Origin: Gemmatimonadota bacterium
Lineage (GTDB): Bacteria > Gemmatimonadota > Gemmatimonadetes > Longimicrobiales > Gaopeijiaceae
Assembly (NCBI GenBank): GCA_007126575.1
Contig: SLBA01000010.1
Span: 1 to 52,649 of the forward strand
Direction of reading: 5' to 3'
DNA: 52,649 nucleotides
The notes below the pieces were generated by a model. It did not search any database. It was not told where the DNA came from and saw nothing but the letters and a program-made list of their open reading frames with translations. The translations under genes were made by a program, and so were the position numbers. Shown in pieces: positions 23,057 to 35,066 of this stretch; within the stretch, counting starts at the first letter, position 1; every line of letters starts with the position of its first letter.

Positions 23057-23962
23057 TTGGTGAGACTTGGCAGGTTCCGTAGCCCGCCTGTCGCCCGGTC
23101 CGGTGATGGCGGGATCACACACGATTCCCCCGAGGCCTCCACTCCGTTGTCCGCCACGTCCACCCCCTCGCACGCCAGACTTCCCCTGATCGGCCGACCG
23201 CTCGCCGCGATCGGCCGCACGAGTGCGCTCGTGGCCGAGCACGCGGGGCAGCTGGGGCTTCTCCTGGCCCGGTCGGTGCGTGCGCTGGTGGGCCTCCAGG
23301 TCTCGTTCCGCTCGATCCTGAACCAGATCTACATCATGGGAGCGCAGAGCGTCCCGATCGTCCTGGTGACCGCGGTTCTGGCCGGGATCGTGACCAGCCA
23401 GCAGGGGGGCTACCAGTTTCAGGGGTCGGTCCCCCTCTACATTCTGGGCTCCGTCGTGACGTCGTCGGTGGTGCTGGAGCTGGGGCCCGTGCTGACCGCG
23501 ATCGTCCTGGTGGGACGGGTGGGAGCGCGCATCACCGCAGAGCTCGGCACGATGAAGGTCTCGGAGCAGATCGACGCCTTCGAGGCGCTCGGGCGGGATC
23601 CGGTCGCGATCCTCGCGGCCCCCCGGATCCTGGCGGGGATCATCGTGCTCCCGGTGCTGGTCGCCCTTGCCAACCTGGTCGGCGTGACGTCCGGCATGGT
23701 CGCGGCGCGCCTCACCCTGGGACTGGGGTACGAGTCCTTCCTCTACGGGGCTCGGCTCTTCTGGCACAACTGGGACATGTTCTACTCTATGACCAAGGCG
23801 GTGACCTTCGGGCTCGCGATTCCCCTGATCTCGATCCACATGGGGCTGCGCACCAGCGGGGGCGCCTCGGGGGTCGGGCGCACGACGACGGCCTCGGTGA
23901 TGTTCATGACGCTGACGATCCTGATCCTCGACGCCTTCTTCCCCCCGCTCCTCCTCCAATGA
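23057..23962 (+). CDS. mlaE: MlaE-family ABC transporter permease
   Basis: This membrane protein of about 270-300 aa belongs to the MlaE/YrbE permease family of MCE lipid transporters. Its conserved core includes the Q-S-V-P-I-V-L-V-T-A segment, V-L-E-L-G-P-V-L-T-A-I-V-L-V-G-R-V-G, A-E-L-G-T-M-K-V-S-E-Q-I-D-A and about five helices. The start is uncertain: there is no ATG before the core, and TTG 23057, GTG 23060 or TTG 23147 could serve; the last gives the usual family length. It is followed by an ATPase and an MCE protein, forming an inner-membrane complex moving phospholipids or other lipids between membranes. Confidence 0.93.
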   Translation: MVRLGRFRSPPVARSGDGGITHDSPEASTPLSATSTPSHARLPLIGRPLAAIGRTSALVAEHAGQLGLLLARSVRALVGLQVSFRSILNQIYIMGAQSVPIVLVTAVLAGIVTSQQGGYQFQGSVPLYILGSVVTSSVVLELGPVLTAIVLVGRVGARITAELGTMKVSEQIDAFEALGRDPVAILAAPRILAGIIVLPVLVALANLVGVTSGMVAARLTLGLGYESFLYGARLFWHNWDMFYSMTKAVTFGLAIPLISIHMGLRTSGGASGVGRTTTASVMFMTLTILILDAFFPPLLLQ

Positions 23963-23996
23963 GCGTCCGCTCCCGGTGCGGCGAAGGGCGGCGAGC

Positions 23997-24764
23997 ATGA
24001 TCCGCTTTCGTTCGGTCTACAAGGCCTTCGACGCCCCCGTGCTGCAGGGTGTCTCCTTCGAGGTCGAAGAGGGCGAAATGTTCGCGGTATTCGGGCCCTC
24101 GGGTACCGGAAAGAGCGTCCTTCTGAAGACGACGATCGGGCTGATCGCGCTGGACCACGGGAATGTGGCGGTCGAGGGGGACTGGGTGTACGGCTCCGGC
24201 AAGCAGACTCTCGCGAGGGTGCGCCGGAAGGTGGGGTACGTCTTTCAGAACTCGGCGCTCTTCGACTCTCTGAACGTGTGGGAGAACGTCGAGATGGGGA
24301 TCGCGGAAGCGGAGCTGGCGACCCTGGCGGGGCGGGAACGGACGCGCAAGATATGGGATGCGCTGGAGCTCGTGAACCTCGAGCCGCGCGATATCCTGAA
24401 GAAGATCCCGTCCGAACTCTCGGGAGGGATGCGCAAGCGGGTGGGGATCGCCCGGGCAATCGTGGGGCGTCCCCGGATCCTGCTCTGGGACGAACCGACG
24501 ACCGGGCTCGATCCGGTCAACACGGCCGCGGTCGAGCGCCTGATCGCCCGACTGTCGGCCGAGCTCAACGTGACCTCGATCGTTGTCACCCACGACATCG
24601 AGGGGGGCCTCCTGATGTGTGATCGGGTGGCCATGCTGGAGGGAGGCCGTCTGCGGTTCATCGGAGCCCCCGACGCCTTCCGATCATCGGAGGATCCCGT
24701 AGTGCGAGCATTCGCAGACCGAGCGGCGGCCGAGGCCGCCCTGGACCAGATGGAGATCACATGA
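23997..24764 (+). CDS. mlaF: MlaF-family ABC transporter ATP-binding protein
   Basis: This cytoplasmic ATPase of about 255 aa has Walker A G-P-S-G-T-G-K-S, Q-loop F-Q-N-S-A-L-F-D, signature L-S-G-G-M-R-K-R-V-G, Walker B I-L-L-W-D-E-P-T-T-G-L-D and the switch His in V-V-T-H-D. The S-G-G-M-R-K-R signature is typical of MCE-linked ATPases. It powers the MlaE-type permease just upstream (34-bp gap). The start is taken as ATG 23997 (M-I-R-F-R); a GTG at 23976 would add seven residues. The stop overlaps the MCE gene start by 4 bp. Confidence 0.95.
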   Translation: MIRFRSVYKAFDAPVLQGVSFEVEEGEMFAVFGPSGTGKSVLLKTTIGLIALDHGNVAVEGDWVYGSGKQTLARVRRKVGYVFQNSALFDSLNVWENVEMGIAEAELATLAGRERTRKIWDALELVNLEPRDILKKIPSELSGGMRKRVGIARAIVGRPRILLWDEPTTGLDPVNTAAVERLIARLSAELNVTSIVVTHDIEGGLLMCDRVAMLEGGRLRFIGAPDAFRSSEDPVVRAFADRAAAEAALDQMEIT

Positions 24765-25723
24765 CGGACCGAGAGGCAAGCGCAGACCGGAAGGGCAGGA
24801 GCCCCGGAGAAGACGAGCTCGAACGGGCCACACCCGCCTCCACGGGAGGTAGGGAGGCCCGAATCGGGATGTTCGTCATCCTGGGCTTCTTCGCCACCAT
24901 CGTCCTCCTCTTCCTCCTGACGGATCCGGCCACCTTCCGCGGGCGATACATGGTCACGACGCAGGTCGAGGACGCGGGAGGGGTGCGACGCGGAGACCCC
25001 GTGCAGATGAGGGGAGTGAACATCGGGCGGGTCCACCGCTTCGATCTCGACACCGAGGGGAACCGGGTCGACATGACGCTCGAGATCAACGGGGAGTGGG
25101 AGATCCCCCAGGACTCCTACGCGCAGATCACCGGAATGGGCCTGCTCGGGGGCCGGACCGTCGAGATCGTGCCGGGAACCTCGGGGGTCGCGGTGGCACG
25201 CAACGGCTTCATCGAGGGCCGACCGGCGACCGGCGGTCTCGAGGACCTGGCGGACATGATGGGTGCGGATGTCACCGAGATCATGGACCGGCTGCAGCGG
25301 CTCACCTCGGACACGACGGTCGATGCGGTGCAGGGCACCGCGCTCGATGCGAGGCGCCTGGTCTCGGACCTGAACGCGATGCTCGACACGCAGCGTGCCG
25401 AGATCGAGGGGCTGACGGCGAGCCTGAGGAGCTCCGCAGAGGCGATCGAGGGTTCGGTCTCGGGCCCCGAGCTCGAACGCACCCTGGCACGCGCGGATTC
25501 GACGATGGCTCGGCTCCAGGAAACCGGCGAGACGCTCGGACAGGCGTCGAACTCGCTCGAGGCGATCCTGGCCCGGATCGAATCCGGCGAGGGGACCCTG
25601 GGCCGACTCTCGAACGACGATCAGCTCTACGAGAACTGGAACCGTGCGGCGACGGCGTTCCTCGAGCTCGCCGAGGACATTCGGGAAAACCCCGGCCGGT
25701 ACGTGCGACTCCGCATCTTCTGA
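24761..25723 (+). CDS. mlaD: MCE-domain protein (MlaD-like), membrane-anchored
   Basis: This 320-aa protein has a polar cytoplasmic N-terminus (about 35 residues), one membrane helix (I-G-M-F-V-I-L-G-F-F-A) and a periplasmic MCE domain (about residues 60-145; V-Q-M-R-G-V-N-I-G-R-V). A long helical, coiled-coil-prone tail ends Y-V-R-L-R-I-F. MCE proteins form hexameric rings that carry lipids across the periplasm. The tail is longer than in E. coli MlaD and resembles the helical tails of larger MCE proteins, so it may build a tube rather than need a soluble MlaC carrier. No mlaC or mlaB gene is seen nearby. Confidence 0.92.
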   Translation: MTDREASADRKGRSPGEDELERATPASTGGREARIGMFVILGFFATIVLLFLLTDPATFRGRYMVTTQVEDAGGVRRGDPVQMRGVNIGRVHRFDLDTEGNRVDMTLEINGEWEIPQDSYAQITGMGLLGGRTVEIVPGTSGVAVARNGFIEGRPATGGLEDLADMMGADVTEIMDRLQRLTSDTTVDAVQGTALDARRLVSDLNAMLDTQRAEIEGLTASLRSSAEAIEGSVSGPELERTLARADSTMARLQETGETLGQASNSLEAILARIESGEGTLGRLSNDDQLYENWNRAATAFLELAEDIRENPGRYVRLRIF

Positions 25724-25853: not shown

Positions 25854-28800
25854 TTACCAGCCCGGCATCATCTGGAATCCCCAGTGTCCGCCCTTGCCGG
25901 GACGCTGCCAGGGATAGGCGTAGTACAGCTCCATGATGAGCGCGCCGAGCACGTTGAAGCGGGCGCTGACCCCCGTGCTCATGACCGGGATCCGCTCGGC
26001 CGACGTCCGGCTGAACTCGAGCGTCGGCTCCCGCGTCGAGTCCCACGCGAGACCGATGTCGTTGAAGAACGAGATCTCGGTGGGGATGAACCCGAAATCG
26101 AGCAGCCCGTAGCGGTCGGTGCCGATCAGGGGGATGCGGGCCTCGAGGTTGAGCACTCCGATCCGGTTGCCCTGCAGGCGGTCGAACACGGGGCAGGTGC
26201 CCGACTGCTCCGGCAGCATCGACTGCATCTGGCATTCCTGCTGCTCGAAGGAGTGCGCCGCGTAGCCTCGGACCAGCGACTGCCAGCCCAGGAAGTAGGG
26301 TCTGAGCACGCCCTCGGTGCTCCGATCGTCGACATCGGACCCGTATCGCCCGAGGTGCAGCCCACGCACCGCGATCGTCAGGTTGGTCGAGGGGCTGAAG
26401 TAGCGACGGTGGTCGAGGTTCAGACTCGTGAACCCGACCGTCCCCATGGTCTGCCCGATCTCGTAGCGAAAGCGCCCGCCGCGGATCGGAGAGGTGAAGC
26501 CCACGAAGGAGTTGTCCCCCACGTACGCAGCCGTCGCCTCGGCCAGATTGATCGGGTCGGGCGTGAGATCGTCGCGATCCCTCCGCTGGTAGTCGATCAC
26601 CTGCTGGCCGGGACCGAGTACGAAGACCTCTTCCTCGATGTCGTACGAGTACCGGTTCACCCCGGCCGCGAAGTCGAAGCGGCGGGTCTGGTTGAGTGCG
26701 TACGAGGCCAGACCGAAGGCCTGGGTCTGGTAGAGTCGCACCCACTGGCGGATGAACTCCGGGCCCTGCTCCCCCTGGCCGAGACCGGCAACCACGAAGA
26801 GGTTGGGGATTCTACCTGCACCCACGCCCCAGTCCCATCGACTCTCGAGGTTCTGGTACATGAACTGTCCGCCCAGGTCCTTGAGCGACCCCTGGGCCTG
26901 CACGGCGACTCCCAGGTTGCGGTTGCCGAGCATGTCCGAGAAGAGCGCCAGGATCGAGCCGCCCACATAGTTGCCGAACCGATCGGTCCCCACCGAGACC
27001 GACGGCTGGGTGATCAGGTCGAGCGAGAGCGAACGGTCGTAGTCCCGGCTGGTCTCCTCGGCATACACGCCGGTCGGAGCCAGGGCGGTCTCGGGATCGT
27101 CCAGGTAGGCCACGATCCGGGACGGTGCGGGAGAATCGCCCAGGGGGAGCATGCGCCCCTCGCGATCCATGTCGGCGACCACGGTCGGAGCCGTGGGCAG
27201 GTCCCGCGAATCCACCGAGTACACGTGGAACTCGAACTCGTCGAAGACCGAGAACACCACCGTCCCGGTCTCGCGAGCCACCGACATCGCCGGAGACATC
27301 GTGGTGATTCCACTGACCCCGGTGGCCAGGTTCGTCACCCGCTGAAGCTCTCCGGACTCGAGCTCCATCCGGTAGATGTCGCTGAATCCGTCCGGGTCCG
27401 ACAGGAAGTACAGTCCCCGACCATCCGGGGTGAACTGCGGGTTGCTGTGACGGACGTTGCCGAAGATCTCGAGGGTTTCGACCGAGTGCTCAACGAGGTC
27501 GAAGAAGGCGATCCTCATCTCCGAAAAGACGAGCCTCTGGAAGTCGGTCTCGGGACCCCGGTCGCTCACGAAGGCGATCCGGTTCCCGTCCGGCGAGAAC
27601 ACGGGCTGCATCGCCGAGTGCTTGTCCCGCGTCAGCGCCGTGACGTCCTCGGTCGCGAGGTCCACCAGGTACAGGTCGGTGGCGCCTCGGGCCTGGCCCG
27701 AAAACACCAGCTGGCTGCCGTCGGGTGAGAAGCTGGGGCCGGTGATCTCGCCGATCTCCCGGCTCACCCGAACACGCTGCTGCACGTTTCCGCGATCGGT
27801 GTCGACGATCACGATCTCGTTGCGACCGTTGGCGAAGACCACGAAGGCGATCCTCTCTCCGTCCGGGGACCACGCTCCCGACGAGTCGATGAATCGCAGT
27901 GCGTCGAAGTGGGGGTCCGCAATCGCGCTCGACAGCTTCCGGATCACCTCTCCGGTCTGCGCGTCGGCCAGGAAGAGGTCAAAGGAGAAGAGATCCTTTT
28001 CGGACATGAAGACCATCTTCGAACCGTCGGGGGAGATCGACGGCGCGACATTCTGGGCTCCGGCGCCGGTCGACGGGGCCAGGAGCAGGGTGCCGGCCTC
28101 GCCGGGGGGCGTCTTGTCCTCCATGCGGGCGGCGTAGTGGCTCTCGGCCGCGGCCTTCCAGTGCACTGAGAGCGAGTCGTGGCTGATCCCGAGAACCTGC
28201 TGGATCGCGGGCTGCCATCCGATGCGCAGAGACGACCGGAAGAGTCGGATCACGGCGTCATCCCCGTACTCCGCACCCACGTAGGTCCAGAACGCCTGTC
28301 CGAACCGGTAGGGGAAGAAGCGGGTCTCGCGAGTCAGCTGGATGAGGGTGGGGAAATCGTCGCGGCGCAGGGCGTCGCGCAGCCACATGCCGGTCAGCGG
28401 GTCTTCCCGACCCAGGGAGAGGTACTCCGCCATCCCCTCGACCATCCAGAGGGGGAGCGACATCAGGCCCTGCATTCCGCCGCCCCGCCTCGACTGGGCG
28501 ATATTGAACTGGAATGCGTGCACGAGCTCATGGCCGAGCACGTGGTCGGTGGACGCGTACGAATTCGAGATCGGCATCACGACACGGTTTTTCAGTCCCT
28601 CGGTGACTCCCCCCGTCCCCTCTCCGACCATGCCGCCAATCGTGTTGGTCTGCTGGAAGTCCGGGTGGTCCGCGTAGAAGATCAGCGGCTTGCGGGCCTC
28701 GAACTCGTGCTGGAAGAGGCGGGCGAGCCGCTCGTACCAGCGCTCGGACATCCGGGCCAGGTCCTCGACGGCTTCGCGCTTCGCCGAGTAGTAGTGGATA

Positions 28801-28976
28801 TCGAAGTGGGGTGTGGTGAGAACCCGGAAGTCGAAGTCGTCGTACTGGACCTTGTTGCGACCGAAATACTGCGCGTCGGCCGTTGCGGGAAGCAGGAAGA
28901 TGAGGCCGAGCACGGGGACGAGCCAACGACCCAGGCGGTAGATCAGGGTGAACCGTCGGGGGCTACTGCTGGACAT
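25854..28976 (-). CDS. Secreted gluzincin-like peptidase / TolB-type propeller / Omp85-like barrel fusion
   Basis: This 1,040-aa protein has a signal peptide ending around A-D-A-Q (residue 36). Residues about 45-300 hold a gluzincin-like metallopeptidase domain with H149-E-L-V-H153 and W-M-V-E-G-M-A-E-Y, in which Glu180 is the likely third ligand. Residues about 320-640 contain at least five TolB/PD40-type blades (S-P-D-G-S-K-M-V-F, S-P-D-G-E-R-I-A-F, S-P-D-G-S-Q-L-V-F, S-P-D-G-N-R-I-A-F, T-P-D-G-R-G-L-Y-F). The C-terminal 350 residues read as beta-strands and include V-R-G-Y (902-905), the Omp85 loop-6 signature, and N-L-E-A-R-I-P-L-I-G, ending in an aromatic strand. The start (ATG 28976) has AAAGGGA upstream. 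It is probably an outer-membrane protein with a periplasmic front. Substrate and role are unknown. Confidence 0.85.
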   Translation of the reverse strand: MSSSSPRRFTLIYRLGRWLVPVLGLIFLLPATADAQYFGRNKVQYDDFDFRVLTTPHFDIHYYSAKREAVEDLARMSERWYERLARLFQHEFEARKPLIFYADHPDFQQTNTIGGMVGEGTGGVTEGLKNRVVMPISNSYASTDHVLGHELVHAFQFNIAQSRRGGGMQGLMSLPLWMVEGMAEYLSLGREDPLTGMWLRDALRRDDFPTLIQLTRETRFFPYRFGQAFWTYVGAEYGDDAVIRLFRSSLRIGWQPAIQQVLGISHDSLSVHWKAAAESHYAARMEDKTPPGEAGTLLLAPSTGAGAQNVAPSISPDGSKMVFMSEKDLFSFDLFLADAQTGEVIRKLSSAIADPHFDALRFIDSSGAWSPDGERIAFVVFANGRNEIVIVDTDRGNVQQRVRVSREIGEITGPSFSPDGSQLVFSGQARGATDLYLVDLATEDVTALTRDKHSAMQPVFSPDGNRIAFVSDRGPETDFQRLVFSEMRIAFFDLVEHSVETLEIFGNVRHSNPQFTPDGRGLYFLSDPDGFSDIYRMELESGELQRVTNLATGVSGITTMSPAMSVARETGTVVFSVFDEFEFHVYSVDSRDLPTAPTVVADMDREGRMLPLGDSPAPSRIVAYLDDPETALAPTGVYAEETSRDYDRSLSLDLITQPSVSVGTDRFGNYVGGSILALFSDMLGNRNLGVAVQAQGSLKDLGGQFMYQNLESRWDWGVGAGRIPNLFVVAGLGQGEQGPEFIRQWVRLYQTQAFGLASYALNQTRRFDFAAGVNRYSYDIEEEVFVLGPGQQVIDYQRRDRDDLTPDPINLAEATAAYVGDNSFVGFTSPIRGGRFRYEIGQTMGTVGFTSLNLDHRRYFSPSTNLTIAVRGLHLGRYGSDVDDRSTEGVLRPYFLGWQSLVRGYAAHSFEQQECQMQSMLPEQSGTCPVFDRLQGNRIGVLNLEARIPLIGTDRYGLLDFGFIPTEISFFNDIGLAWDSTREPTLEFSRTSAERIPVMSTGVSARFNVLGALIMELYYAYPWQRPGKGGHWGFQMMPGW

Positions 28977-31482: not shown

Positions 31483-33924
31483 TCAGGCGCCGTAGGGGAT
31501 CCAGATGTTCTTCACCTGGGTCGCCTCGCGCAGGAAGCGCTCTCCGGCTCCCTGGCGTGTGTCCAGCCAGTTCGGCTGCCCGACCCCCGGGGTCCAGCAC
31601 CGCTTGAGGTTGCCCGCGGACTCCCGTTCGATCATGGAGGCCTCCTCGGCGGACCCGAAGCCCCAGAACCCGTCCACCCCGTCGTGCGCGGCCAGGACCC
31701 GGACGAGCTCGGCGCGGGGACCCGTGATCAGGTTCACCACCCCGCCGGGAACGTCCGAGGTGTCCAGCAGCTGGTAGAGGGGGTGTGCCACCAGCGGAAA
31801 GGTGTTCGACGGCAGGGCGATGACCGCGTTGCCCATGGCGATGACGGGGGCGAGCGTCGAGATCAGCCCGAGCAGGGGGGCTTCGTCGGAGGCGGCGACG
31901 GCAAGTACGCCCAGGGGCTCGACCATCGCGACCGTGACGTTCCGGAAGGGGGTGGCGTGGACCCGTCCGTCGTACTTGTCGGCGAGTGCTGCGTAGTCGA
32001 AGAGGCGCTCCAGCGAGAGCCGGACCTCGCGGGCGGCCGCCTCGGGAGAGAGACCGGCCCCGCCCGTCAGGAGGGTCTCGAGCTCCTCGCGGCGGGCCTC
32101 GAGGTTCTCGGCCAGGTAGTAGAGGATCTGGGCCCGGAGGTGCGCGGGAGCCTGCCCCCAGGAGGGTTGCGCCTTGAGCGCGGCCTCGACGGCGTCGCGG
32201 ACATCCTTGCGGTTCCCCCGGGGGATCTCGCCGACCCGGCGGCCCTCGGGATCGAGGACCGAGAGGGTATAGCCCCCGTCCGGCCGCTTCTGACGTCCAC
32301 CGATGTAAAGCTTGAGCGTGCGGTCGATCGGACGAAGGCCGTCGGTCGAACGGGGTGCGGGTTCGGAATCCCCGTTCGAGCGGTCCATGCCGTCGGTCAC
32401 CGACGATCGGGGACGATGCCCGGCCCGGTGATCGGCAGGATCGGCCTCGCCGGAATCCGGATCCGGTCGCAGGTACTCGTGCATCCCCTCGCGCCCACCC
32501 TCGCGGCCGAAGCCGCTCTCCCGGTACCCACCGAAGCCCGACGCCGCATCGAAGAGGTTCGTGCAGTTGACCCACACCGTCCCGGCCTTCACCGCGGGGG
32601 CGACCTCGAGCGCCAGGTTCACATTCTCGGTCCAGATCGAGGCCGCGAGCCCGTAACGGGTGTCGTTGGCCAGCTCGATCGATTCCTGATGGGTGCGGAA
32701 GGTCATCATGGCCACGACCGGCCCGAAGATCTCGACCTGGGCCAGGGTTCCCGCCGGCTCGACCCCGGTGCAGAGGGTGGGCGGGTAGAAGAGGCCCGCT
32801 TCGGGAATGGCCCACGAGGGCTGCCAGATCTCGGCGCCCTCGCTTCGACCGCGCTCGACGAGCTCGCGGATCGTGTCCAGCTGGACGGGGGACACGATTG
32901 CGCCCATGTCGACGCCCTTGTCTAGGGGATCGCCCATGCGGAGCGTCTCCATGCGGGCACGGAGCTTCTCTTCGAGAAGTCCCGCCACCCCCTCCTGCAC
33001 CAGGATGCGGGATCCGGCGCAGCAGACCTGGCCCTGATTGAACCAGATCGCGTCGACCACCCCTTCGACGACCGAGTCGAGGTCGGCGTCTTCGTAGACG
33101 ATGAAGGGCGACTTGCCGCCCAGCTCGAGCGAAAGCTTCTTCCCCTGGCCCGCGGTGGCCCGCCGGATCTCGCGACCGACCTCGGTGGAGCCGGTGAACG
33201 CCACCTTGCGCACCTTCTCGTGCGCCACGAGGGCGGCACCCGTGCGTCCATCGCCGGTCACCACGTTGACGACCCCGGGGGGAACGCCGGCCTCGTCACA
33301 CAACTGCGCGAAGAGCAGGGCGGTGAGCGAGGTGTACTCGGCCGGCTTCAGGACGAGGGTGTTTCCGGCCGCGAGGGCGGGGGCCACCTTCCAGGCCAGC
33401 ATGAGGAGGGGGAAGTTCCATGGGATGACCTGGCCCACGACTCCGTGCGGGCGCATCCCGGGAAACTCCCGGTCGAGGAGCTGGGCCCACCCGGCATGGT
33501 GGTAGAAGTGTCGGGCCACCAGAGGGATGTCGAGGTCGCGGGATTCACGGATCGGCTTTCCGTTGTCCATCGATTCGAGTACCGCGAAGAGCCGGGCGTG
33601 CCGCTGGACGGACCGGGCGATCGCGTACAGAACACGCGCCCTGTGGTGCGGGCCCTCGGACCACCACCCCTCCCGAGCCGCCTCGGCGGCCCGCACGGCC
33701 CGCTCCACATCGTCGGAGGACCCCTGACTGATCGATCCCAGCACCCGACCGTTGGCCGGATTTACGCTGTCGAAGCGAACGCCCTCGGAGGGTGGAGACC
33801 AGCGGCCGTCGATGAAGTGGTCGAAGCCTGACGCATGCTCCGCCAGCCACTGCTCGGCCAGCTCCGCGCTCTCGGGCGCCGGACCGTACTCCATCGTCTC
33901 GAAGATGCGGGTAATCGTGGTCAT
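31483..33924 (-). CDS. ALDH16-type two-domain aldehyde dehydrogenase
   Basis: This 813-aa protein has a complete first aldehyde dehydrogenase domain (about residues 30-500). It shows V-I-P-W-N-F-P, F-T-G-S-T-E-V-G, L-E-L-G-G-K-S-P (general-base Glu) and F-N-Q-G-Q-V-C-C-A-G, where Cys301 aligns with the classical nucleophile Cys302. After a Pro/Ser/Asp-rich linker (about 500-540) comes a second, shorter ALDH-like domain (about 540-813). It has I-A-M-G-N-A-V-I-A-L-P and the beginning of the cofactor fold but no catalytic Cys region. This active-plus-pseudo arrangement is that of bacterial ALDH16. It starts 6 bp after deoC, so acetaldehyde from DeoC is a plausible substrate. Confidence 0.92.
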   Translation of the reverse strand: MTTITRIFETMEYGPAPESAELAEQWLAEHASGFDHFIDGRWSPPSEGVRFDSVNPANGRVLGSISQGSSDDVERAVRAAEAAREGWWSEGPHHRARVLYAIARSVQRHARLFAVLESMDNGKPIRESRDLDIPLVARHFYHHAGWAQLLDREFPGMRPHGVVGQVIPWNFPLLMLAWKVAPALAAGNTLVLKPAEYTSLTALLFAQLCDEAGVPPGVVNVVTGDGRTGAALVAHEKVRKVAFTGSTEVGREIRRATAGQGKKLSLELGGKSPFIVYEDADLDSVVEGVVDAIWFNQGQVCCAGSRILVQEGVAGLLEEKLRARMETLRMGDPLDKGVDMGAIVSPVQLDTIRELVERGRSEGAEIWQPSWAIPEAGLFYPPTLCTGVEPAGTLAQVEIFGPVVAMMTFRTHQESIELANDTRYGLAASIWTENVNLALEVAPAVKAGTVWVNCTNLFDAASGFGGYRESGFGREGGREGMHEYLRPDPDSGEADPADHRAGHRPRSSVTDGMDRSNGDSEPAPRSTDGLRPIDRTLKLYIGGRQKRPDGGYTLSVLDPEGRRVGEIPRGNRKDVRDAVEAALKAQPSWGQAPAHLRAQILYYLAENLEARREELETLLTGGAGLSPEAAAREVRLSLERLFDYAALADKYDGRVHATPFRNVTVAMVEPLGVLAVAASDEAPLLGLISTLAPVIAMGNAVIALPSNTFPLVAHPLYQLLDTSDVPGGVVNLITGPRAELVRVLAAHDGVDGFWGFGSAEEASMIERESAGNLKRCWTPGVGQPNWLDTRQGAGERFLREATQVKNIWIPYGA

Positions 33925-33930
33925 GAGAGC

Positions 33931-34950
33931 CTACGCGAGGGGATGACGGTGATGGGCCGAATAGCGGCCGGTGACGTGATGCTCGAGCTGACGCTCGATG
34001 TCGCCGAGGAGGGACGAGGCTCCGAAGCGGAAGAGATGAGGGTCCATCCACCCGGTGCCGAGCTCCTCGCGCACCAGGATCAGCCACTGCAGCGCCTGCT
34101 TGGCGGTACCGATCCCCCCCGCGGCCTTGAGTCCGACCTCGAAGCCGGTGCGGTCCCGATAGCTGCGGATCTGGCGGGCCATCGCGATCCCGGTGGGGAG
34201 GGTGGCGTTGACCGACTCCTTGCCCGTCGAGGTCTTGATGAAATCGGCGCCGGCCATCATGCTGACGATGCTCGCCTGGGCGATGCGGGTGAGGGTCCCG
34301 AGCTCGCCGGTGGCGAGGATCACCTTCAGGTGCGCGCCTCCGCAGGCTTCCCGGAAGGCCCGTACCTCGTGGTACAGGGCGCTCCAGTTCCCCGTCAGGA
34401 CGTGGGAGCGTGTGATCACGACGTCGATCTCGGTGGCGCCCGCTTCGACCGAGGCCTCGATCTCGGCGATCCGAAGCCGCAGGGGCGAGAGGCCGTGCGG
34501 AAATCCGGTGGAGACGGCCGCGACAGGAATTCCGGTGCCATCGAGGGCCTCGAGGGCGACGGGGACGAAGGCGTGATACACGCAGACGGCGCCCGTCGTG
34601 AGCCCCAGCCCCTCGATTTCCAGCGCCTCGACCAGATCGGGACGCAGGGGCCGTCGCGCCTTGGCGCAGAGCCTGCGCACGCGGCCGGCGGTGTCGTCCC
34701 CCGAAAGGGTGGTGAGGTCCATGAGCGAGACGGCCTTCAGGAGCCAGGCCGCCTGCCACCTCTTCTTCACGGTTCGGCGGGTGCCGAGCGTCGACGCCCT
34801 GCGCTCGACCGCGCTCCGGTTCAGGCGCAGGTCGCGCACCCAGTCGAGTTCCAGGGGCATCCCGGGGTTCAGGCGGGCGGGGGTCGGGACAGTGTCGACC
34901 TCGGGGTCGGACACGCTGCGGTCGGATTCACGGGTTCGGGTCGTGGCCAC
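33931..34950 (-). CDS. deoC: Deoxyribose-phosphate aldolase (long form)
   Basis: This enzyme of about 339 aa cleaves 2-deoxyribose-5-phosphate to glyceraldehyde-3-phosphate and acetaldehyde. It has the DERA core with D-F-I-K-T-S-T-G-K (Schiff-base Lys) and G-L-K-A-A-G-G-I (second Lys), plus M-D-L-T-T-L near the start of the barrel. An N-terminal extension of roughly 60-70 residues makes it longer than E. coli DeoC, as in the eukaryote-like long DERAs. The start is set at GTG 34950 because GAGGAGG lies 7 nt upstream; the ATG six codons earlier has none. It heads a two-gene operon with the ALDH16 gene. Confidence 0.94.
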   Translation of the reverse strand: MATTRTRESDRSVSDPEVDTVPTPARLNPGMPLELDWVRDLRLNRSAVERRASTLGTRRTVKKRWQAAWLLKAVSLMDLTTLSGDDTAGRVRRLCAKARRPLRPDLVEALEIEGLGLTTGAVCVYHAFVPVALEALDGTGIPVAAVSTGFPHGLSPLRLRIAEIEASVEAGATEIDVVITRSHVLTGNWSALYHEVRAFREACGGAHLKVILATGELGTLTRIAQASIVSMMAGADFIKTSTGKESVNATLPTGIAMARQIRSYRDRTGFEVGLKAAGGIGTAKQALQWLILVREELGTGWMDPHLFRFGASSLLGDIERQLEHHVTGRYSAHHRHPLA

Positions 34951-35066
34951 TGAAGACCCTCCTCGCATCAGGAGTCGGATGGTACGACGGCACGGCCTCC
35001 CGAAGCACGGGAGCCCTCGATTGGACGTCTAACCTACCACCGGCCGAACCGGGATTCCACCGCGGA

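Follow-up and report, generated by a model that had tools for sequence, protein, structure and literature searches.

A single gene on the minus strand of the window, the 52,649-nucleotide stretch of Gemmatimonadota contig SLBA01000010.1 analysed here, encodes a protein in which a gluzincin-type zinc peptidase domain, a TolB-like propeller, and an Omp85-type barrel follow a predicted signal peptide. The protein is a near-universal core protein of Gemmatimonadota. It is considered probable, by a modest balance of the evidence, that it acts as an outer-membrane-anchored, periplasm-facing zinc endopeptidase which cleaves envelope polypeptides, most likely outer membrane proteins (OMPs) or lipoproteins, in envelope or OMP quality control.

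The roles known for Omp85 proteins are the building or translocation of OMPs, and outer membrane proteases are, to our knowledge, generally separate molecules. In 2014, Heinz and Lithgow described a subfamily, 'WD40-Omp85', whose Omp85 barrel lacks POTRA domains and is preceded by a TolB-like propeller, and speculated that it represents a fusion resembling BamA-BamB (PMC4104836). The preliminary description of this DNA had stressed that TolB-like propellers and Omp85 barrels normally belong to separate assembly machines; as this subfamily shows, their combination has a precedent. The window protein fits the published definition, with its N-terminal TolB-like propeller on a POTRA-less Omp85 barrel, but adds an intact gluzincin domain, as judged against the published description. 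The main text of the 2014 paper mentions no peptidase for WD40-Omp85 (PMC4104836). Hence what appears to be new is the joining of an intact gluzincin to propeller-Omp85, while the propeller-Omp85 fusion itself was already known.

An enzyme-Omp85 fusion has also been studied in PlpD, a patatin-Omp85 protein whose enzyme domain likewise lies N-terminal to the barrel. This domain is exclusively periplasmic, and reuse of the Omp85 scaffold for novel functions has been suggested (PMC11116518). PlpD differs in carrying a patatin-like domain in place of a zinc peptidase, in having POTRA, and in having no propeller (PMC11116518). In the openly licensed literature, the term 'WD40-Omp85' was found only in the 2014 paper (PMC4104836) and no paper combined Omp85, TolB-like, and metallopeptidase, the protein being apparently unstudied. 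Subunits of the F. johnsoniae BAM (BamP, BamM, and others) were considered as the same protein and rejected, as neither a peptidase nor a propeller turned up among the subunits in a text search of the paper on that complex.

Gene and domain architecture

The interval 25854-28976 had been described as one protein of 1,040 residues. The coordinates and the length stand, while the strand is corrected to minus (28976..25854). The frame begins with Met at 28976, its stop codon ends at 25854, and the plus-strand frame across the same interval is broken by internal stops. The motifs HELVH, WMVEGMAEY, VRGY, and NLEARIPLIG (residues 943-952) lie where they were originally placed. The source genome, a 3.68 Mb bin, holds a single copy of the three-module gene.

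Table 1. Features of the three-module gene and its convergent neighbour in the window.
Feature	Residues	Position	Strand	Basis
Whole gene (signal peptide, gluzincin, TolB-like propeller, Omp85 barrel)	1-1040	25854..28976	-	1040-aa ORF; full-length homologues
Signal peptide (predicted)	1-35	28872..28976	-	Sequence, conservation, pLDDT <50 for 1-35
Gluzincin (peptidase MA) domain	36-290	28107..28871	-	Peptidase_MA_2, fold model
HELVH zinc-binding motif	149-153	28518..28532	-	H149, E150, H153 in 131/131
WMVEGMAEY	177-185	28422..28448	-	E180 (probable third zinc ligand) and E184 in 132/132
Tyr223, expected transition-state tyrosine	223	28308..28310	-	132/132; collagenase alignment
Six-bladed TolB-like beta-propeller	~291-594	27195..28106	-	PD40, TIGR02800, TolB fold
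Linker	595-650	27027..27194	-	DSSP, pLDDT; no POTRA recognised
Omp85-type transmembrane barrel	~651-1040	25857..27026	-	BamA fold; orthologues match PF01103
Loop-6 motif VRGY	902-905	26262..26273	-	Between strands 11 and 12
FNDIG, (F/G)xDxG signature	971-975	26052..26066	-	Strand 13 (966-978)
MlaE-MlaF-MlaD (MCE) operon, convergent neighbour		23057..25723	+	MlaE 3.6e-62, ABC_tran 4.7e-33, MlaD 3.7e-18 (Pfam)

Signal-peptide cleavage was placed by eye after ADA, giving a predicted mature start of QYFG in which Q36, F38, and G39 are almost invariant across an alignment of 132 diverse members. Prediction of the full-length structure resulted in a mean pLDDT of 87.8 and a pTM of 0.85. Profile searches of the window protein gave no POTRA match, residues 36-594 being taken up by the peptidase and the propeller, and the linker that follows is the lowest-conservation segment of the mature protein.

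The proposed anatomy of gluzincin, TolB-like propeller, and Omp85 barrel is well supported by sequence profiles, structure prediction, and conservation, and on these models all three modules are real. Two outcomes had been named as counting against it, a C-terminus without a closed barrel and homologues that lose HExxH, and neither came out that way. Chance motifs within a strand-rich protein are ruled out, as conserved motifs stand at matching positions throughout the family alignment.

The peptidase domain

Taken alone, the window protein gives a weak Pfam peptidase signal (BSP, 0.001); Peptidase_MA_2 matches 57 of 72 diverse members, with a best value of 1.5e-17. When predicted separately, residues 34-294 form a domain of mean pLDDT 90.8. 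Its best structural match is the Vibrio-type M9 collagenase 8jt1_A (Z 17.6, rmsd 3.4 over 234 residues), followed by the M30 peptidase lugdulysin (7bb8_A, Z 16.0) and then by M1 aminopeptidases (Z ~14). The M9 collagenases and lugdulysin share with this domain the gluzincin fold, the HExxH, Glu, and Tyr set, and its spacing, but they have only ~10-15% identity to it and are secreted proteins without a barrel.

The 132 diverse members were surveyed for HExxH, the downstream Glu, and VRGY. None of the 131 sequences that can be scored there has lost H149, E150, or H153, and E180, E184, and Y223 are kept in all 132. The WMVEGMAEY segment aligns with WWSEGVAEY or WWSEGIAEY of Vibrio-type collagenases, and Y223 with the tyrosine of the collagenase IYRWG. 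E150 and Y223 are separated by 73 residues, the same spacing as between E242 and Y315 of lugdulysin, both of which are mutated in PDB 7bb9. As HELVH, E180, and Tyr223 are invariant and agree with collagenase and lugdulysin in register and spacing, the site looks catalytically complete. The gluzincin-type site of the preliminary description is thereby borne out by its invariant HExxH and Glu, a peptidase MA profile, and a fold match.

Part of the loci came from searches seeded with peptides containing WMVEGMAE, a possible source of conservation bias; the 63 sequences from the full-length search alone show the same conservation. A degenerate peptidase is ruled out, with no loss of HExxH or Glu among the 131-132 sequences or among these 63. 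The catalytic set is never lost in three lineages, down to ~30% identity, and selection therefore appears to maintain an active enzyme. Median identity to the query in the 63-sequence unbiased set falls from 57% in the peptidase to 45% in the propeller and 40% in the barrel, making the peptidase the best conserved of the three domains.

PF00149 is a calcineurin-like phosphoesterase family and not a gluzincin family. It defines the 'Omp85-metalloprotease' group of Heinz and Lithgow, which is another subfamily (PMC4104836).

The propeller

At least five TolB-like blades had been noted earlier; Pfam finds five PD40 stretches that each pass on their own score (8.5e-31), and the fold model has six blades, the ring being closed by strand 296-299 on our reading of DSSP. 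TIGR02800 (TolB) matches at 1.1e-40, yet under the equivalog cut-off. The nearest solved relative is TolB 6pnv (VIA-align Z 26.5 over 250 residues), which shares the six-bladed PD40 propeller. The window protein differs from TolB in being membrane-anchored and in lacking the TolB N-terminal domain (PF04052), which elsewhere in the genome occurs in one gene (G000:C88). A genuine TolB with this domain is a separate gene in the source genome and its relatives (19 of 19 genomes searched), which rules out the window protein as the TolB of the genome.

The Omp85 barrel

The modelled residues 652-1038 superimpose on BamA 8bnz_A with a VIA-align Z of 23.2 (308 residues aligned), and numerous further structures of BamA and Sam50 match at Z ~20-22. 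DSSP assigns 16 long strands, with an extra short strand at 793-800 read as a loop strand. Two motifs mark Omp85 proteins, (V/I)RG(Y/F) at the loop-6 tip and, in strand 13, (F/G)xDxG (PMC4490367), and the window protein carries both. R903 is kept in 126 of 129 members and G904 in 129 of 129, while F971, D973, and G975 are kept in 127 of 127 scorable members. This FxDxG is the TamA/BamA form, FhaC having GxDxG. The barrel therefore resembles BamA and TamA in its fold and in both motifs, but is preceded by a peptidase and a propeller in place of POTRA domains. In three loci (L086, L097, and L152) loop 6 reads HGY for RGY and the FxDxG aspartate is kept, a natural variant of the lid-lock.

The profile search had a split outcome: Pfam Omp85 (PF01103) does not detect the window copy itself, but matches above the curated cut-off in the C-terminal part of a 79%-identical orthologue and of several others (1e-13 in L026 and 1.2e-9 in L163). 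An hhalign comparison of the family barrel with PF01103-matching loci of the phylum, a set that included a few wrong-frame ORFs, gave a probability of 96.4% (E 9e-10) and placed the RGY motifs opposite each other. A likeness to Omp85 resting on VRGY only is ruled out by the second motif, the fold, and the orthologue Pfam matches, the same evidence that upholds the original Omp85 assignment of the C-terminal region.

The PF01103 search of relatives also returned many weakly matching Omp85-like frames per genome, of 640-1500 aa. Judged by sequence, this suggests that the phylum holds more undescribed Omp85 architectures.

Distribution

Homologues are present in 59 of 59 near relatives searched; most are full-length, some are split or partial at contig ends, and one (G014) matches through the propeller only. 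With a homologue threshold of E up to 1e-60, the family was found in 291 of the 295 Gemmatimonadota genomes sampled, in 144 of 247 in the Bacteroidota phylum sample, and in 46 of 149 in that of Acidobacteriota. Carriers in Gemmatimonadota include genomes of 1.6-2 Mb. Such presence, extending to genomes of this size, suggests a housekeeping rather than an accessory role.

A distant branch matches the query mainly at residues 20-590; its frames are still ~950-1280 aa, and nearly all of those read have HExxH, EGxAE[YF], RG[YFL], and FxDxG. The whole architecture, and not just the N-terminus, is therefore ancestral to the family. It is conserved to ~30% identity.

Single records depart from this pattern. 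One relative carries two full-length copies in tandem (G054:C53:132848-139306), and the single-contig genome G131 has only the last 224 barrel residues, a copy that may be truncated, broken, or mis-assembled. Four public MAGs labelled 'Gammaproteobacteria bacterium' (L047, L048, L058, and L106) hold homologues 57-59% identical to the Gemmatimonadota-type protein, and these records are probably mislabelled or misbinned.

Gene neighbourhood

The gene had been described as standing alone next to an MCE lipid transporter. This agrees with what was found, as it is monocistronic, convergent with the adjoining MlaE-MlaF-MlaD operon and divergent from an alanine-racemase/D-serine-dehydratase-like gene. 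The convergence on the MCE operon recurs in the window and 15 Gemmatimonadota-type loci. It rules out a shared operon and, together with the different neighbours in other lineages, means that the MCE genes provide no evidence of a shared pathway.

Among Sphingobacteriales, 18 loci (including L094, L089, and L101) have a PBP1A-type transglycosylase/transpeptidase gene directly upstream on the same strand, at ~20-180 bp. In Rhodothermales (L067-L085), PBP2 (12 loci, identified by eye) and RodA (9 loci) are divergent from the homologue. Two lineages thus have two different peptidoglycan-synthesis neighbours. A distant Bacteroidota branch has RNase R upstream, also identified by eye. The cell-envelope neighbours hint at an envelope function; synteny does not fix the pathway, because neighbours vary by lineage and one Bacteroidota branch has RNase R.

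Elsewhere in the window, an 813-aa frame on the minus strand (31483-33924) contains two aldehyde-dehydrogenase stretches (Aldedh, 1.4e-195) and is a tandem ALDH fusion. It adjoins a DeoC-family aldolase gene (33931-34968).

Proposed function and alternatives

Beyond this anatomy, the topology, the proteolysis, the kind of substrate, and any part played by the barrel as an insertase are inferred. The signal peptide would direct the protein to the periplasm and the C-terminal barrel would insert in the outer membrane. Omp85 barrels have their N-terminal side in the periplasm, and so the peptidase and propeller would also be periplasmic, hanging below the barrel in the usual position of POTRA domains. 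The propeller is probably a docking site for a partner or a means of presenting substrate. In the active site, H149, H153, and E180 would bind zinc, with E150 as the general base and Y223 stabilising the transition state. Cleavage of envelope polypeptides would take place near the membrane, most likely on OMPs or lipoproteins in the course of assembly or stalled in it. This endopeptidase reading is supported by the conserved catalytic set, the peptidase being the best conserved domain, the M9/M30-like fold (Z 16-17.6), and the BamA-like barrel with its lid-lock motifs. The periplasmic enzyme of PlpD (PMC11116518), the near-universal presence in the phylum, and the envelope genes next to the homologues in other lineages also speak for it.

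OMPs and lipoproteins as the substrate class are the weakest step of the mechanism, suggested by analogy with BepA, which acts beside BAM. BepA is a soluble M48 peptidase of a different gluzincin family and carries TPR repeats. The likeness is one of function only, BepA being a precedent for a periplasmic zinc metallopeptidase acting on OMP assembly (PMC8423444). A search of 19 relatives found M48 peptidase genes in every one, which leaves the protein unsupported as a stand-in for a missing M48 peptidase. Since the related genomes also hold these peptidases and a separate TolB, its role need not be unique.

It may be that the barrel inserts or folds OMPs through a lateral gate and loop-6 lid like BamA, with the peptidase removing failures or trimming successes. 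Both lid-lock motifs are in the insertase form (FxDxG 127/127), the barrel matches BamA at Z ~21-23, and the protein is near universal in the phylum. However, the POTRA domains which hold the substrate in studied insertases are absent, and the genomes of the relatives each contain several canonical Omp85 genes as it is. The scaffold reuse proposed from PlpD also weighs against insertion, and with the periplasmic location of the PlpD enzyme it leaves the 'insertion device' of the preliminary description hypothetical (PMC11116518). Overall, a protease-insertase is rather unlikely. The more ambitious proposal of a POTRA-less Omp85 insertase, with the propeller as substrate receiver and its own protease destroying failed substrates, would make the protein a one-polypeptide outer membrane quality-control machine and a core envelope component of Gemmatimonadota, and we regard it as unlikely.

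The PBP1A-type gene upstream in 18 loci, PBP2 or RodA divergent in 9-12 loci, and TolB as the nearest solved relative of the propeller could instead indicate a protease whose processing targets are lipoproteins of peptidoglycan synthesis or of the Tol/Pal type and whose propeller binds a partner resembling Pal. These neighbours are lineage-specific, with the MCE transporter in the protein's own phylum and RNase R in another branch, and the missing TolB N-terminal domain and separate TolB gene also make a cell-wall role quite unlikely. Very unlikely is type Vd-like self-secretion, in which the barrel would export the peptidase, perhaps with the propeller, as a surface-anchored extracellular protease. 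The order of enzyme and barrel resembles PlpD as first interpreted and the nearest peptidase folds are secreted collagenases, but the enzyme of PlpD, the only tested analogue, is exclusively periplasmic (PMC11116518). In addition, ~560 folded residues would need to pass through a lid-locked barrel, and core conservation in reduced genomes speaks against an accessory exoenzyme.

Significance

The anchored endopeptidase favoured here would be a complete zinc protease fused to an Omp85 barrel, intact in at least three phyla and near universal in one. As a second enzyme-Omp85 type beside PlpD, it bears on whether such barrels serve as insertases or as mere anchors. It is a testable candidate for outer membrane surveillance in these little-studied diderms.
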